From IMG/VR virus record IMGVR_UViG_3300044646_001128, positions 1 to 36,346 of that record: a DNA stretch of 36,346 nt, one strand, 5' to 3'. Origin of the DNA: a virus. Under the pieces are notes generated by a model that saw only the letters and a list, made by a program, of their open reading frames with translations, did no database searches and had not been told where the DNA came from. The position numbers and the translations under genes are program-made. How positions within the stretch are numbered: the stretch's first letter is position 1; each line of letters begins with the position of its first letter. This document shows, piece by piece, positions 13,184 to 36,346 of the stretch.

Positions 13184-13210
13184 GGCGCAAGAGGTACGAA
13201 CTCTTGCGCC
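13184..13210 (-). terminator. Strong leftward terminator hairpin
   Basis: GGCGCAAGAG and CTCTTGCGCC are a perfect 10-bp inverted repeat with a 7-base loop. On the minus strand the stem is followed at once by TTTTTT, the pattern of a Rho-independent terminator for leftward transcription. On the plus strand the sequence after the stem is TGGAAATT, which is not a good terminator. No leftward gene is visible immediately upstream of it. Confidence 0.6.
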
Positions 13211-13279
13211 TGGAAATTATTTTGCTCGAAGCGCACGGCAGTTAATGCGTGCGGGTACGACTAATCACTTTAATTACCC

Positions 13280-14470
13280 ATGAGCATTTTATCTGAAAAA
13301 AATTCCGTAGCCAACGACAAAGAGTATAAGTTCACGATCACCATCGGAGAGGCGAGAAGGTTTGGCATGCCAGCTTACGGCATACTGGAGATGATCCTTG
13401 CCAATCGAGCCAAATACTACCCTGTTATATTTCCGAATAGGAGGCAATGGGCCGAGCTGACTGGGATGAGTCGCGTGAGCTTAAGAGTTACCCTTTCGCA
13501 GTTTTTGAAGAAGGGGATTCTATCAATCGTTGAGACCGAAGAAGGCCAAAAAGTATACAAATACAACCGTAATGGTTCATTACAAAACGTTAATGAACCA
13601 TTACAAAACGTTAATGAGCCGCTAATGGTTTGTAATCAGTCATTACAAAACGTTAATGAACCATTACACCAAAGTGTAATGAACCATTACACAAACGTTA
13701 ATGAACCATTACAGTCGCACTATATATCCGAAAAATACTATCAAAGTACTAAAGAATTAAAAGAAGAAGAAGAGGGGCTATCGCCCCAGGTCGGCTTCGC
13801 CTCTTCTTGTGTTTCTGATTTTAGTTCTCCGGTTGTCATTCCTGATGAGATTCAGGAGCTGATTACTAATCCGCCGTTTGTTTCAGTTGTTGCAAAAAAT
13901 GCAACAACTGAGGTTGCCGAAACGGATTTCGGGAACCCTCCACAGACCGTAACAGCCTTCGGAGTCACCTACACAATCAGCAAGCCCGTAAACGCCTCAG
14001 GAAGCACCAACGGCACCACGGGCCATAGTGATACTAGCGTTGGCATGGTGCAGGAGCAGGAAGGGGGCAAAATGGAGGCTACGCAAGGGCGTGAGGTGGC
14101 TATCACAAAGCCAAAGAGCAACAAGCCGAAAAAAGCTAAGAGCTACACTCAGTACGCAGAACAGGATTTCTTTTGGCCTGACCACTGGACGGGGCGAGGA
14201 AGGCAAGCTTTACAAACGTGGGTTGAGTATAAGCGCGACACAGGGAAAGCCGTTCTACTCCAGAGCTATCAACAGCTAATCAAAAACTTCATTGGGGATG
14301 AGCCGGGGTTTGTGCTTGCCGTCGATCACTCAATCGCCAACGCCTACCAAGGACTATTCAAGCCCAACGGCCAACAGCTCAGGGAGGCACAAAAGCAGCA
14401 ACAACAAGCGCAGGTGAACAGCACCGACTGGCACGATCGCTTGGCTGAACTTTTGGCAATGGAGGAATAA
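13280..14470 (+). CDS. Replication initiator, lambda O-like organisation
   Basis: A 396-residue protein. Residues about 15-95 form a winged/helix-turn-helix domain ('RRQWAELTGMSRVSLRVTLSQ'). Residues about 98-152 are a repetitive linker with 'LQNVNEPL' units encoded by DNA iterons. Residues 155-290 are low-complexity. Residues about 295-380 contain 'FFWPDHWTGRGRQALQTWVE' and 'SIANAYQGLF', a C-terminal domain common in phage replication proteins. In lambda O the N-terminal domain binds iterons placed inside the gene, and the C-terminal part contacts the helicase loader; the same arrangement fits here. The next gene is a loader candidate. No primase or ATPase motif is present. Confidence 0.8.
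   Translation: MSILSEKNSVANDKEYKFTITIGEARRFGMPAYGILEMILANRAKYYPVIFPNRRQWAELTGMSRVSLRVTLSQFLKKGILSIVETEEGQKVYKYNRNGSLQNVNEPLQNVNEPLMVCNQSLQNVNEPLHQSVMNHYTNVNEPLQSHYISEKYYQSTKELKEEEEGLSPQVGFASSCVSDFSSPVVIPDEIQELITNPPFVSVVAKNATTEVAETDFGNPPQTVTAFGVTYTISKPVNASGSTNGTTGHSDTSVGMVQEQEGGKMEATQGREVAITKPKSNKPKKAKSYTQYAEQDFFWPDHWTGRGRQALQTWVEYKRDTGKAVLLQSYQQLIKNFIGDEPGFVLAVDHSIANAYQGLFKPNGQQLREAQKQQQQAQVNSTDWHDRLAELLAMEE
13569..13775 (+). other. Candidate replication origin inside the initiator gene
   Basis: Direct repeats beginning CATTACA...GTTAATGA occur at 13578-13598, 13599-13619 (tandem, 21-bp period), 13641-13661, a variant at 13662-13684, and 13685-13706, followed by a half copy at 13707-13713. 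The variant contains a perfect inverted repeat, CATTACAC/GTGTAATG (13662-13681), and GTAATG/CATTAC pairs at 13569-13583. An AT-rich, purine-biased stretch (13720-13775, TATATATCC then A-rich) follows and could be the unwinding element. This is the iteron-plus-AT-rich layout of lambda-type origins. Confidence 0.75.
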
Positions 14471-14473
14471 GAC

Positions 14474-15076
14474 ATGAACAACCAACAAGTTGAATTTCTA
14501 ATCTCCATGCTCCGTGATTGCTTCCCGACTTCTAAAGGCTATGACGGCCCTACGGTAGTTCAGAGTTGGCACACTATGGGCTTGTGCGACCTATCGTTCG
14601 ACAAAGTGCTTTTGGCTGTTCGCAAAGGCATCAAGGAAAACCGATGGGACTATCCGCCGTCAATCAACGACATCCTGAAAGCGTACAACGACGCGTCGCC
14701 AAAAGTCCCAATGGACTATGAGGGGCTGTCGAACGACTCGCAGATCAAGCACGCCATAGACATGCGAGTGAACAAACGGCATCCCGAGGTGGACCCTAAG
14801 AGGCAGTTTCGGGACATCGAAGAGCATCAGGAGGCTTTAGCTATTAACCGACAACAGCGGTTAAAATACCGTAATGAGCTATTCAAGGAGGTGAAACCGG
14901 AAGTTCAACGGCTCCTGAACTCAGGCATGAAAAGCGCGCAGATAGTCAGCCAGGTGTTTGGTGTCGAGTATGTCAAGTCGGATCATCGTAGGCATTTAGG
15001 GCAGGGCACTAATGACGTTGTTGACCTTGCAAAATCCATTGCTAAAGCACTACCGGGGGTGGGAAATGGAAGTTAA
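14474..15076 (+). CDS. Helicase-loader candidate, G39P-like
   Basis: A 200-residue protein with no ATPase motif, so it is not a DnaC-type AAA+ loader. Residues 5-70, including 'LRDCFPTSKGYDGPTVVQSW' and 'RWDYPPSINDILKAYND', have the helical pattern of the SPP1 G39P loader/inhibitor N-domain. That family carries the replicative helicase to the origin-bound initiator. The remaining sequence is charged and helical with a basic C-terminus. It follows the initiator gene by three bases with AGGAGGAATAAGAC before its ATG, matching the O-P arrangement. The family assignment is by pattern and would need a profile search. Confidence 0.6.
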   Translation: MNNQQVEFLISMLRDCFPTSKGYDGPTVVQSWHTMGLCDLSFDKVLLAVRKGIKENRWDYPPSINDILKAYNDASPKVPMDYEGLSNDSQIKHAIDMRVNKRHPEVDPKRQFRDIEEHQEALAINRQQRLKYRNELFKEVKPEVQRLLNSGMKSAQIVSQVFGVEYVKSDHRRHLGQGTNDVVDLAKSIAKALPGVGNGS

Positions 15077-15338: not shown

Positions 15339-16502
15339 ATGTACGAACATCACGAAATAGCAAACATATTCCCTCTATTCGCAAACAGCGAACTAGAGGC
15401 ACTAACGCAGGACATAAAGAACCACGGGCTACGGGAAGCCATATGGCTTTACGAGGGGAAAATACTTGATGGGAGGAACAGATACCTTGCCTGTGGGTTA
15501 GCAGGGGTTATGCCTTCGTTTAGGCAGTATGAAGGCACTGACCCCGTGGGGTTCGTGGTGTCGCTGAACTTACACCGACGGCATTTGAACGAAAGCCAAA
15601 GGGGTATGGTTACGGCGAATATCGCGAGACTAAGCAAAGGCGGAGACAGCGGGGTAGTTAAAAGCAATGCGCAAATTTGCGCATTGAACATCCCTACGCA
15701 GACCGAAGCGGCCCAAATGCTTAACGTCAGCCGGCGCACCGTCCAGCATGCCAGGGCAGTCCAGGACGAAGGAGCACCGGAGCTAATCGAACAGGTAGTT
15801 CGCGGCAACGTCGCAGTCTCTACCGCTTCCGAAGTAGCGACCCTACCAAAAGAAGAACAAGCGGAGATCGTAGCCAAAGGAGAGAAGGCGATACTAGAAG
15901 CAGCTAAGAAGATACGGGCGGAGAAATTAGAGACTAGAAGGGTTGAGAAGATCGAGCGCATAGCAGAGATAAGCAGCCGGAGCAGGGATCTGAATATAGC
16001 TCAAAGGTTCCCTATCGTTTATGTTGATCCTCCGTGGCGCTACGAGGGGAATATCTGCGACGAGACCAGAGACCTTGATAACCACTACCCCACCATGACC
16101 GACGACGAACTAAGGAATCTCCCAGTTGCCAATATTGCGACCGACGACGCTATGCTATTCATTTGGTCGACCAATTCGCACCTACCCTTAGCTATAGAAC
16201 TAATCAAACACTGGGGGTTTGAGTACAAGAATAACTTTGCTTGGGTGAAGGACAAAGTAGGGCTAGGTGTCTACAACCGGGGTCAGCACGAACTCCTATT
16301 GGTAGCTCGAAAGGGCGGGATCCCAGTTCCCCCGCCACAAGGGCGGACCCCTTCCGTTGTACAAGCAGCAAGGTTAGAACATTCCGAAAAGCCAACCGAG
16401 TTCTATGAACTCATAGAGCGGGCCTATCCAGAGCTTCCCAAGATAGAACTATTCGCACGCAAAGACAGGACCGGCTGGGCAAGTTGGGGGAATGAAGTAT
16501 GA
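15339..16502 (+). CDS. ParB-like domain fused to MT-A70 adenine methyltransferase
   Basis: A 387-residue protein in two parts. Residues about 1-105 are a ParB/Srx-like domain with 'GKILDGRNRY' (40-49). Residues about 118-140 form a helix-turn-helix ('TQTEAAQMLNVSRRTVQ'). Residues about 225-385 are an MT-A70 methyltransferase with the catalytic 'DPPW' at 230-233. MT-A70 enzymes transfer methyl from S-adenosylmethionine to adenine N6. No cognate restriction gene is nearby, so it is an orphan enzyme that could protect phage DNA or mark replication status. The GGAG site lies before the ATG. Fusions of this type are known in phage genomes. Confidence 0.88.
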   Translation: MYEHHEIANIFPLFANSELEALTQDIKNHGLREAIWLYEGKILDGRNRYLACGLAGVMPSFRQYEGTDPVGFVVSLNLHRRHLNESQRGMVTANIARLSKGGDSGVVKSNAQICALNIPTQTEAAQMLNVSRRTVQHARAVQDEGAPELIEQVVRGNVAVSTASEVATLPKEEQAEIVAKGEKAILEAAKKIRAEKLETRRVEKIERIAEISSRSRDLNIAQRFPIVYVDPPWRYEGNICDETRDLDNHYPTMTDDELRNLPVANIATDDAMLFIWSTNSHLPLAIELIKHWGFEYKNNFAWVKDKVGLGVYNRGQHELLLVARKGGIPVPPPQGRTPSVVQAARLEHSEKPTEFYELIERAYPELPKIELFARKDRTGWASWGNEV

Positions 16503-17054: not shown

Positions 17055-17444
17055 ATGAACAGATTAACAATCGCGGGAACGGTAGAGAAAACGGTGTCAC
17101 CAATCGGAAATTCCGACAAGCTCGGAGAGTTTTTAATCAGGGTGCCGGAGCGCAAAAAGACAGCGGCCGGGCAGTGGGAAGATTCCCATTCTTTCCTACC
17201 GGTAAAGGTTTTCGGGAAAGCTCTAGGGGTAGCACGAGCGCACCTCAAGACAGGCACAAGGTGCTTCATCACGGGCAAGTTGGAAGGGCGCGAGTATAAC
17301 GGGAAGTACTATACGTCGGTCGTCGCTGAGGAGGTTTTTGCGCTTGCAGGAGGGGAAGCAGGACAAGCGCCACGGGCAGGGAGCCAAGAGGCACCGCATG
17401 AGGCAGGCGCGCCGAGCTGGACAGAGGACGATATACCGTTTTAG
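17055..17444 (+). CDS. ssb: Single-stranded DNA-binding protein
   Basis: A 129-residue protein with the OB-fold of bacterial SSB ('NRLTIAGTVEK' at the N-terminus, 'HSFLPVKVFGK', 'GTRCFITGKLEGREY'). It ends in 'WTEDDIPF', the acidic C-terminal tip that SSB uses to contact partner proteins. It is shorter than host SSB (about 170-180 residues), as is usual for phages. GAGGAGGGGAAA precedes the ATG, and it follows the nuclease candidate after ten bases. It would coat single strands during replication and RecT annealing. Confidence 0.92.
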   Translation: MNRLTIAGTVEKTVSPIGNSDKLGEFLIRVPERKKTAAGQWEDSHSFLPVKVFGKALGVARAHLKTGTRCFITGKLEGREYNGKYYTSVVAEEVFALAGGEAGQAPRAGSQEAPHEAGAPSWTEDDIPF

Positions 17445-34444: not shown

Positions 34445-36346
34445 TGGGATTAACTCCTGAAGAACAAGCCAGAATGGAGCAATTACAGGCTGAAATAAGC
34501 CAGTTCGAGGCTCCTACTCCAACAATCGCGCCATCAACAGAGGGGCGCACATGGAACCGCTACGCCGACAACCTTGCACAACAGGCAATAGGCGGGCTCA
34601 CGCTCGGATATGACGATGAAATATTCGGCGGAATTGCTGGACTTGCTAATTACGTGACTGGTAAGGGCGCTACGGGCGAACAGATGCTCGACAAGTACCG
34701 CGCAGAAGATAAGGCGTTTCAGCAATCAGACCCAGCGGCGGCCATTCTTGCAGGCATTGGCGGCTCTATGATGATGCCAGGCGGAAGCGTCTTAGGCTTA
34801 GCCACAAAGGCAACGATGGGCGTCAATGCGGCCAAGGCGCTAAACTCTGGGATAGTCGGGCGGGTAGCTCAGGCAGTAACAGACGGAGCTATTGCAGGAA
34901 GCGGAGAAGCTGAAGGCGACTTTGCCAAGAGAATGATCGGCGGTCTCGCATCGGGGGCAATCTCAGGCGGTATTGGTGGCGGTGCTTCAGCAATCACTTC
35001 AGGCGGCGGAGCATTATACAACAAGGTGGGCCAGGCTCTAGGAGATGGCGCGTTTGACCCAACTATTCGCAAGATCGGCGACACTCTCGGCCTTGACGCC
35101 GTGACAGCTCCAATACTAAAGGAAGCGCAAGACAGAATAAACCTTGCAGCACAATACAACATACCGCTGAACGTTCTGGATTCAGTGACCGTTCCCGTAA
35201 CATCAGGCGGCGATACAGCCAAGAGCAGCCTATACAACCTTGCCAAGCAAGTAGCACAGACCCTCGACGGCGGGATCATGGAATCTCAAGTTGCATTGAA
35301 ACAACGGGGAGAGAACCGATTCGATCGCATCAACAGCATTCTGGACCAAATAGCACCAGGTAAGGGTGTTCGTGCAGCATCAGAAGACTTTTCAAGCATG
35401 GCAGAAGATGCGGTAAAAACAGCTCGTAAAAGCCTTGCACAAGAAGAAGGGCAGCTATTTAGGGACATGAAAGAGCAGTTCCCGAAAATAGGGGCCGAAA
35501 GGGCGAACAAGCTACTTGAAATCGAGACGCCGGACGGTATCGCCCCTGTGAAATCTCTACTTGATAGCGCCTACAAGACACACAAAATCGTGGCTATGGA
35601 GCAAGGCGCTCCGGCTATGTCAAAGGCTGATTTCGAGCGGTCAACAGAGGGATGGTTGAGCGTTAGAAAGGAAGTGAGCGACAGGCTAGAAGGCTTAAAG
35701 CAGAGCAATGACAGCTCTAAATACTCCGAAATGCGGCCCGTTGCCTCCCTGTTAAAAGTAATCGACAGTGAGATTAACGCAGCAACCGAAGGCGGGCTAA
35801 AAAAGGCAAACAAAGCATACGCCGACAGATACGCAGCCGAACCCGAAGTTCTTGACATCGGCGGAATAATCCAACGGATAGCTAAAGATAGGTCTTTAGG
35901 CGCTAGCCCTATCGCAAGGATCAAAGAGGTATACGGCGCTACTGCTATTGATTCAGCGGATATAGAGGCGGTATCAAGGTACTTACCCGATGATGCTAAT
36001 CGGCTGGGGTTAAGAGCGGGTCTCGGAGTCTCCTATAATGACAAGGGCGATAATCCAGCACGGGCGCTACTTAAGAGCGACAGAATAAAAAATCAAATGC
36101 AACGGATACTACCCGAACAGGAGGTGGCCCAGATTCGCCAGCTGCTAAACTTTGAGAACGCTATAAACACCAACACCCAAGGCCTAACACAAGGCAGCCC
36201 GACAAACTCAAATCAGTACTCGACGATAAAGGAAGTCCTGAAAAAAGTTCCTGGTGTTAGTCTTCTTAGTCGGTTGGCGGATGATATGCAGTCTCGAAAA
36301 ACGACAGACGAATACTCTAAGTTGGCAAACGCAATGTTTAGAACTG
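34444..36346 (+). CDS. Ejection/virion protein, split by the window edge
   Basis: An open reading frame that runs to the window end and continues at position 1, ending at 184. The joined protein has 684 residues. Residues about 100-180 are Gly/Ala-rich with hydrophobic patches ('ILAGIGGSMMMPGGSVLG', 'GGLASGAISGGIGGG') and might insert in membranes. Residues about 220-430 are helical and charged. The C-terminus contains 'LLNFENAINTNTQGLTQGSP', a sequence style I associate with DNA ejection (pilot) proteins of podoviruses. Such proteins leave the virion with the DNA and form a channel across the host envelope. The split arises from where the circular sequence was opened. Confidence 0.75.
   Translation, partial: MGLTPEEQARMEQLQAEISQFEAPTPTIAPSTEGRTWNRYADNLAQQAIGGLTLGYDDEIFGGIAGLANYVTGKGATGEQMLDKYRAEDKAFQQSDPAAAILAGIGGSMMMPGGSVLGLATKATMGVNAAKALNSGIVGRVAQAVTDGAIAGSGEAEGDFAKRMIGGLASGAISGGIGGGASAITSGGGALYNKVGQALGDGAFDPTIRKIGDTLGLDAVTAPILKEAQDRINLAAQYNIPLNVLDSVTVPVTSGGDTAKSSLYNLAKQVAQTLDGGIMESQVALKQRGENRFDRINSILDQIAPGKGVRAASEDFSSMAEDAVKTARKSLAQEEGQLFRDMKEQFPKIGAERANKLLEIETPDGIAPVKSLLDSAYKTHKIVAMEQGAPAMSKADFERSTEGWLSVRKEVSDRLEGLKQSNDSSKYSEMRPVASLLKVIDSEINAATEGGLKKANKAYADRYAAEPEVLDIGGIIQRIAKDRSLGASPIARIKEVYGATAIDSADIEAVSRYLPDDANRLGLRAGLGVSYNDKGDNPARALLKSDRIKNQMQRILPEQEVAQIRQLLNFENAINTNTQGLTQGSPTNSNQYSTIKEVLKKVPGVSLLSRLADDMQSRKTTDEYSKLANAMFRT
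36315..36346. repeat. 32-bp terminal direct repeat showing circular contig
   Basis: These bases equal positions 1-32 exactly, and the reading frame crossing the join is uninterrupted. The most likely cause is the assembly overlap of a circular or circularly permuted genome, rather than a biological terminal repeat, since it falls inside a gene at an arbitrary place. Confidence 0.9.

Follow-up and report, generated by a model that had tools for sequence, protein, structure and literature searches.

An O-like initiator gene and its neighbors

The stretch of phage DNA analyzed here, called the window, is a 36,346-bp record that looks complete. Its first 32 bp (1-32) recur as a direct repeat at the other end (36315-36346), which makes it either circular or terminally redundant. 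The gene at the center of this analysis resembles the O-like replication initiators of phages and holds a putative origin within its own reading frame. The features of the gene and its surroundings are as follows:

13280-14470, plus strand: O-like replication initiator gene holding the putative origin; 396 aa; PHROG 678, 345 and 270
13367-13564, plus strand: predicted N-terminal winged-helix/helix-turn-helix (HTH) DNA-binding domain, approximately residues 30-95; PHROG 345 and 678
13718-13773, plus strand: A-rich, presumed strand-opening region; top-ranked 40-bp AT window of the record
13774-13787, no strand assigned: small predicted GC-rich hairpin GGGGC-TATC-GCCCC directly after the A-rich stretch
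13979-14446, plus strand: conserved C-terminal domain, presumed to contact the helicase loader; PHROG 678 (residues 234-389) and identity with a sister phage
14474-15076, plus strand: probable helicase loader, counterpart of lambda P; weak match to PHROG 2289 'helicase loader' (E=3.7e-6)

The initiator was assigned by a PHROG profile search, in which the whole protein matched PHROG 678, 'replication initiation O-like', with E=1.2e-16 (best stretch, residues 234-389) and PHROG 345 with E=3e-6. When the N-terminal piece was searched alone, PHROG 345 was matched with E=5.7e-5 and PHROG 678 with E=4.7e-4 (about 5e-4). PHROG 270, which also consists of initiators, matches the N-terminal part as well. 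The N-terminal match to the O families is weak. An earlier, sequence-only reading of this DNA had placed the repeats described below inside the gene for an HTH initiator, and the similarity of both its N-terminal and its C-terminal part to O-like families bears this out. A Pfam search with the protein returned zero families above the cut-off; HTH_Crp_2 and RP-C matched the N-terminal domain weakly, below it. The initiator does not reach the cut-off of PF04492 (Phage_rep_O, the family of the lambda O N-terminus), whereas lambda O does with 5.7e-36. No relative was found when the PDB was searched by sequence, and the fold of the DNA-binding domain, predicted from one sequence without relatives, had a pLDDT of 46, which is too poor for use.

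The predicted replication module is in the lambda order, with the initiator followed by the probable loader, and a gene for a single-strand DNA-binding protein lies at 17055-17444. Between these, 15339-16502 encodes a 387-aa protein with N-terminal ParB-like partition similarity (PHROG 4715) and an MT-A70 methyltransferase domain. Upstream of the initiator gene, at 13184-13210, is a strong terminator-like stem-loop, GGCGCAAGAG...CTCTTGCGCC; the initiator gene of the sister phage also has an upstream hairpin.

The 60 bp that follow the repeat array are 72% AT and 52% A, compared with 53% AT and 32% A for the reading frame, and no 40-bp window of the 36-kb record is richer in AT than the one that adjoins the array. 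The AT-rich stretch that had been described after the repeats is thus confirmed, at 13718-13773. GC skew had been proposed as a check on the position of the origin. The cumulative minimum falls near 12 kb, where leftward genes give way to rightward ones, and at four-fold degenerate sites the skew is approximately zero in the rightward genes up to 5.8 kb as well as in those beyond 13.2 kb. Since the skew follows gene direction, it does not locate the origin; it was dropped as evidence and speaks neither for nor against an origin in the initiator gene.

The repeat array and its unit

The repeat array occupies 13569-13713, inside the O-like reading frame, with its start at residue 96 of 396. Half sites TAATG and CATTA alternate along it, so two dyad registers can be drawn. 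In the register TAATG-N3-CATTA there are seven copies spanning 13570-13711 (five perfect, one with one mismatch and one with two), and the inner spacer is 3 in 7/7 while the linkers vary. In the CATTA...TAATG register, the copies have inner spacers of 8, 8, degenerate, 8, 10 and 9. Complete TAATG-N3-CATTA units also stand at both ends of the array. We took TGTAATG-AAC-CATTACA, the full form of this dyad, as the unit because its spacer is constant, because complete units close the array and because lambda iterons are alike in this respect. In this register the features of the array are:

13570-13582, minus strand: iteron 1, inverted; TAATGAACCATTA on the minus strand
13591-13603, plus strand: iteron 2; TAATGAACCATTA
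13612-13624, plus strand: iteron 3, eroded; TAATGAGCCGCTA, two mismatches
13633-13645, plus strand: iteron 4; TAATCAGTCATTA, one mismatch
13654-13666, plus strand: iteron 5; TAATGAACCATTA
13662-13681, no strand assigned: perfect palindrome CATTACAC-CAAA-GTGTAATG at the iteron 5/6 junction
13677-13689, plus strand: iteron 6, the fullest copy; TGTAATGAACCATTACA at 13675-13691, in a codon frame that differs from the other six
13699-13711, plus strand: iteron 7, adjoining the A-rich stretch; TAATGAACCATTA

Iteron 1, which reads TAATGGTTCATTA, is the exact reverse complement of TAATGAACCATTA, including its center (GTT, not AAC). The sequence-only reading was right that an array exists at 13569-13713 and that part of it has a 21-bp tandem period. 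Its count of five repeats has to be replaced by seven dyads, and its unit, CATTACA...GTTAATGA, does not hold because the spacer varies. It had also suggested that the palindrome at 13662-13681 is a special high-affinity or autoregulatory site. In the TAATG-N3-CATTA register, the palindrome arises where the right arm of unit 5 and the left arm of unit 6 face each other; two neighboring units simply meet there.

The array is far beyond chance. Its score is 23; the highest score among 1000 codon shuffles is 10, and six other reading frames of the window score 4 to 6. There are five perfect TAATG-N3-CATTA dyads, while 5000 synonymous shuffles that preserve the protein contain 0.15 on average and at most 3. 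All perfect sites in the 36,346-bp record lie in the array, and a scan of the whole record found no perfect or one-mismatch dyad outside it. When up to two mismatches are allowed, the record holds 21 sites, those of the array included, against 13.7 expected. One of these two-mismatch dyads, TAATTACCCATGA at 13271-13283, overlaps the start codon of the initiator; it is chance-expected, though its position would suit autoregulation. Unit 6 is out of frame with the other six units and encodes MNHYT where they encode NEPLQ; its 13 bp of DNA are nonetheless identical. The DNA of this unit has been kept in another frame, which suggests selection on the DNA rather than on the peptide.

A sister phage and a survey of O-like genes

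The initiator (whole and as separate N- and C-terminal parts), the loader and a DNA pattern served as queries in scans of viral contigs, which returned only one close and one distant relative. No match in phage or plasmid collections was significant, and a scan of genome contigs gave none. The close relative, IMGVR_UViG_3300042879_002721 (L003), is a 35-kb phage contig. Its initiator shares 91% identity over 108 residues with the window initiator in the C-terminal domain, and the loaders are 70% identical, but the DNA-binding domains share 27% identity over only 41 aa. At the same site in its gene, the sister phage carries an array of six perfect GGATC-N5-GATCC dyads, and the linker peptide encoded there is unrelated to that of the window, with the palindromic array being read in more than one frame. 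After the array, CTATATATC is common to the two phages, and the hairpin stem is kept as GGGGC-TAAC-GCCCC. The DNA identity of the pair is at background across the DNA-binding domain and the iterons, resumes near 13718 in the A-rich stretch and reaches 88% further on. It follows from this pattern that the binding domain and the iterons were replaced together. The 15339-16502 protein has no match in the sister phage. The ends of the sister contig overlap inside its own initiator gene by 194 bases (L003 11-204 / L006 1987-2180) with 2 mismatches, and the overlap reaches into the iteron region, which suggests an assembly break at the repeats together with strain variation. The distant relative (C-terminus 30% identical) has its own array, built around TGCAA-N4-TTGCA.

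Such arrays were also sought in O-like genes of phages and of bacteria, the bacterial genomes being those of the phylum to which an E. coli genome belongs. Most of these genes have an in-gene palindromic array that scores above 20 codon shuffles per gene, a coarse null that makes arrays just above it doubtful; some have no significant array by this method. The arms differ widely, with TCCCT in lambda, TTTAC in P22, TTACC in an E. coli prophage, GTCTC in mEpX1, CGGGA in HK225, GTGCC in Ab31, TTCCC in Pmp10, and others. Fifteen dereplicated genes were hand-picked from the surveyed set for Mantel tests. Across these 15 genes, similarity of the DNA-binding domain predicts similarity of the iterons (r=0.53, p=0.0002), whereas similarity of the C-terminal domain does not (r=0.05, p=0.27). 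When one more near-duplicate was removed, the value for the DNA-binding domain was r=0.52 (p=0.0006). The window itself adds little to this correlation since the set holds no close relative of its DNA-binding domain. A lambda O gene whose protein is 100% identical was also met in contigs L007-L013, which are filed under Shewanella, Streptomyces, Neobacillus, Oceanobacillus, Leeuwenhoekiella and others; these copies are probably lambda control DNA contaminating public genomes.

A candidate in-gene origin, its rivals and its known counterparts

The locus is very probably a lambda-type replication origin embedded in the O-like initiator gene of this phage, with initiator binding and origin function taken over by analogy. 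Judged by its sequence, it is predicted to belong to the lambda-type in-gene class, of which it has every defining trait that sequence can reveal: an O-like gene, in-gene dyads between the two domains, an adjacent A+T-rich region and a loader gene, the last identified through a weak match. In lambda, each inverted-repeat iteron is occupied by O dimers, which open the neighboring A+T-rich region on supercoiled DNA (PMC5043065; PMC7466680), and by analogy the same steps would be expected here. Dimers of the initiator would bind the seven palindromic iterons in their own gene through the N-terminal winged-helix domain, and assembly on the supercoiled array would open the A-rich stretch at 13718-13773. 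The C-terminal domain would then recruit the loader encoded at 14474-15076, and the loader would bring the host replicative helicase for theta replication.

The same origin may be drawn in the register of the sequence-only reading, with CATTA-CAAAACG-TTAATG as the unit. Three exact copies of this unit exist, and its CAAAACG core also occurs in lambda iteron 1 (ATCCCT-CAAAACG-AGGGA), in L034 (GTCAC-CAAAACG-GTGAC) and in the sister phage (CGGAT-CAAAACG-ATCCG). We consider this register unlikely, as the inner spacing of its copies is 8, 8, 8, 10 and 9, a further copy is missing and the array ends in half sites (13569 and 13707) that it leaves unexplained, while the other register has a constant spacer throughout. 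The CAAAACG match to the lambda core was set aside as a sign of homology, since in the constant-geometry register this sequence is the linker between units. Another possible explanation is that both overlapping dyads (TAATG-N3-CATTA and CATTA-N8-10-TAATG) are bound, so that the initiator would form a continuous filament with shared half sites, unlike the separate dimers of lambda. This idea comes from the alternation of half sites at a near-constant period throughout the array; we regard it as improbable.

The remaining explanations deny the array a part in starting replication. HTH proteins commonly bind palindromic operators, and intragenic sites could block elongation, so the O-like protein might mainly repress its own gene or downstream transcription, with the true origin elsewhere. 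An operator cluster of this kind is very unlikely, given that the array lies in the linker just before an A-rich stretch, as in the lambda origin, and that no perfect or one-mismatch site accompanies it outside the array; the site at the start codon is no more than chance would provide. The array could also be the by-product of a NEPLQNV peptide repeat that slippage created in a flexible linker, the DNA itself having no role. Its 21-bp period and the identical codons of several copies fit a recent tandem duplication, and linkers between domains tolerate repeats. Against this, unit 6 keeps the DNA dyad in another frame with other residues, the sites do not arise when the synonymous codons of this protein are shuffled, and the sister phage, with its unrelated peptide, again has palindromic DNA repeats at this position, read in more than one frame. 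We therefore give this explanation very little credence. The least credible explanation is a site for partition or for control of methylation, serving for example the ParB-like/MT-A70 protein of 15339-16502. Sites of the parS type are palindromic, and this neighbor does have ParB-like similarity, but the sister phage keeps an array without a match to the protein, and other O genes, that of lambda included, have arrays without such a neighbor.

As a lambda-type origin, the locus adds a new iteron specificity to the class. The lambda-type origin itself has long been known, and phage-specific pairing of O and ori in lambdoid phages was reportedly described by Furth and Yates in 1978 and by Moore et al. 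in 1979, so the novelty is modest; PMC6022878 cites both of these papers. The window and the sister phage form a natural domain swap, in which the binding domain and the iterons change jointly, while the remainder of the initiator is retained along with the presumed strand-opening stretch and the loader. From the survey comes a rule open to testing, namely that the iteron arms can be predicted from the N-terminal domain. This rule would allow origins to be predicted in phages known from sequence alone, and the phage of the window is itself known only from an environmental sequence record.

Compared with known systems, the locus can be placed as follows. The iteron plasmid origins of F, P1 and RK2 have their iterons outside the rep gene. 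They share with the window repeated initiator sites that adjoin an A+T-rich region, but the units of the window are dyads inside the initiator gene. The iterons of these plasmids are bound by monomeric initiators (PMC5043065). The sister phage has a similar C-terminal domain and loader and the same array position, CTATATATC and hairpin, and differs in its DNA-binding domain and its iterons. Gene 18 of Salmonella phage P22 is O-like and has an annotated in-gene origin with four iterons, TTTAC-N7-GTAAA, an A-rich stretch and a GC-rich hairpin (CCCCC...GGGGG). Its DNA-binding domain is the nearest to that of the window in the survey, though weakly so; it differs in its arms and in the gene that follows, which encodes a DnaB-type helicase, with no loader. 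In ori-lambda, the iterons lie within gene O between the DNA-binding and C-terminal domains, with a loader gene downstream, and the annotated iterons likewise have constant inner geometry and variable linkers. The A-rich stretch of lambda is 68% AT, with A making up 50% of the strand that is A-rich in the window too (72% and 52% there), and is also followed by an inverted repeat. The sequence-only reading had proposed a lambda-type layout with different repeats, and this has stood: the array comes first, then the A-rich stretch, the hairpin and the C-terminal domain, all in the order and on the strand seen in lambda, with the loader-like gene next. The differences lie in the N-terminal domain, which is below detection by Pfam Phage_rep_O, and in the iterons, which are four TCCC-N9-GGGA in lambda and seven TAATG-N3-CATTA here, the first of them inverted.
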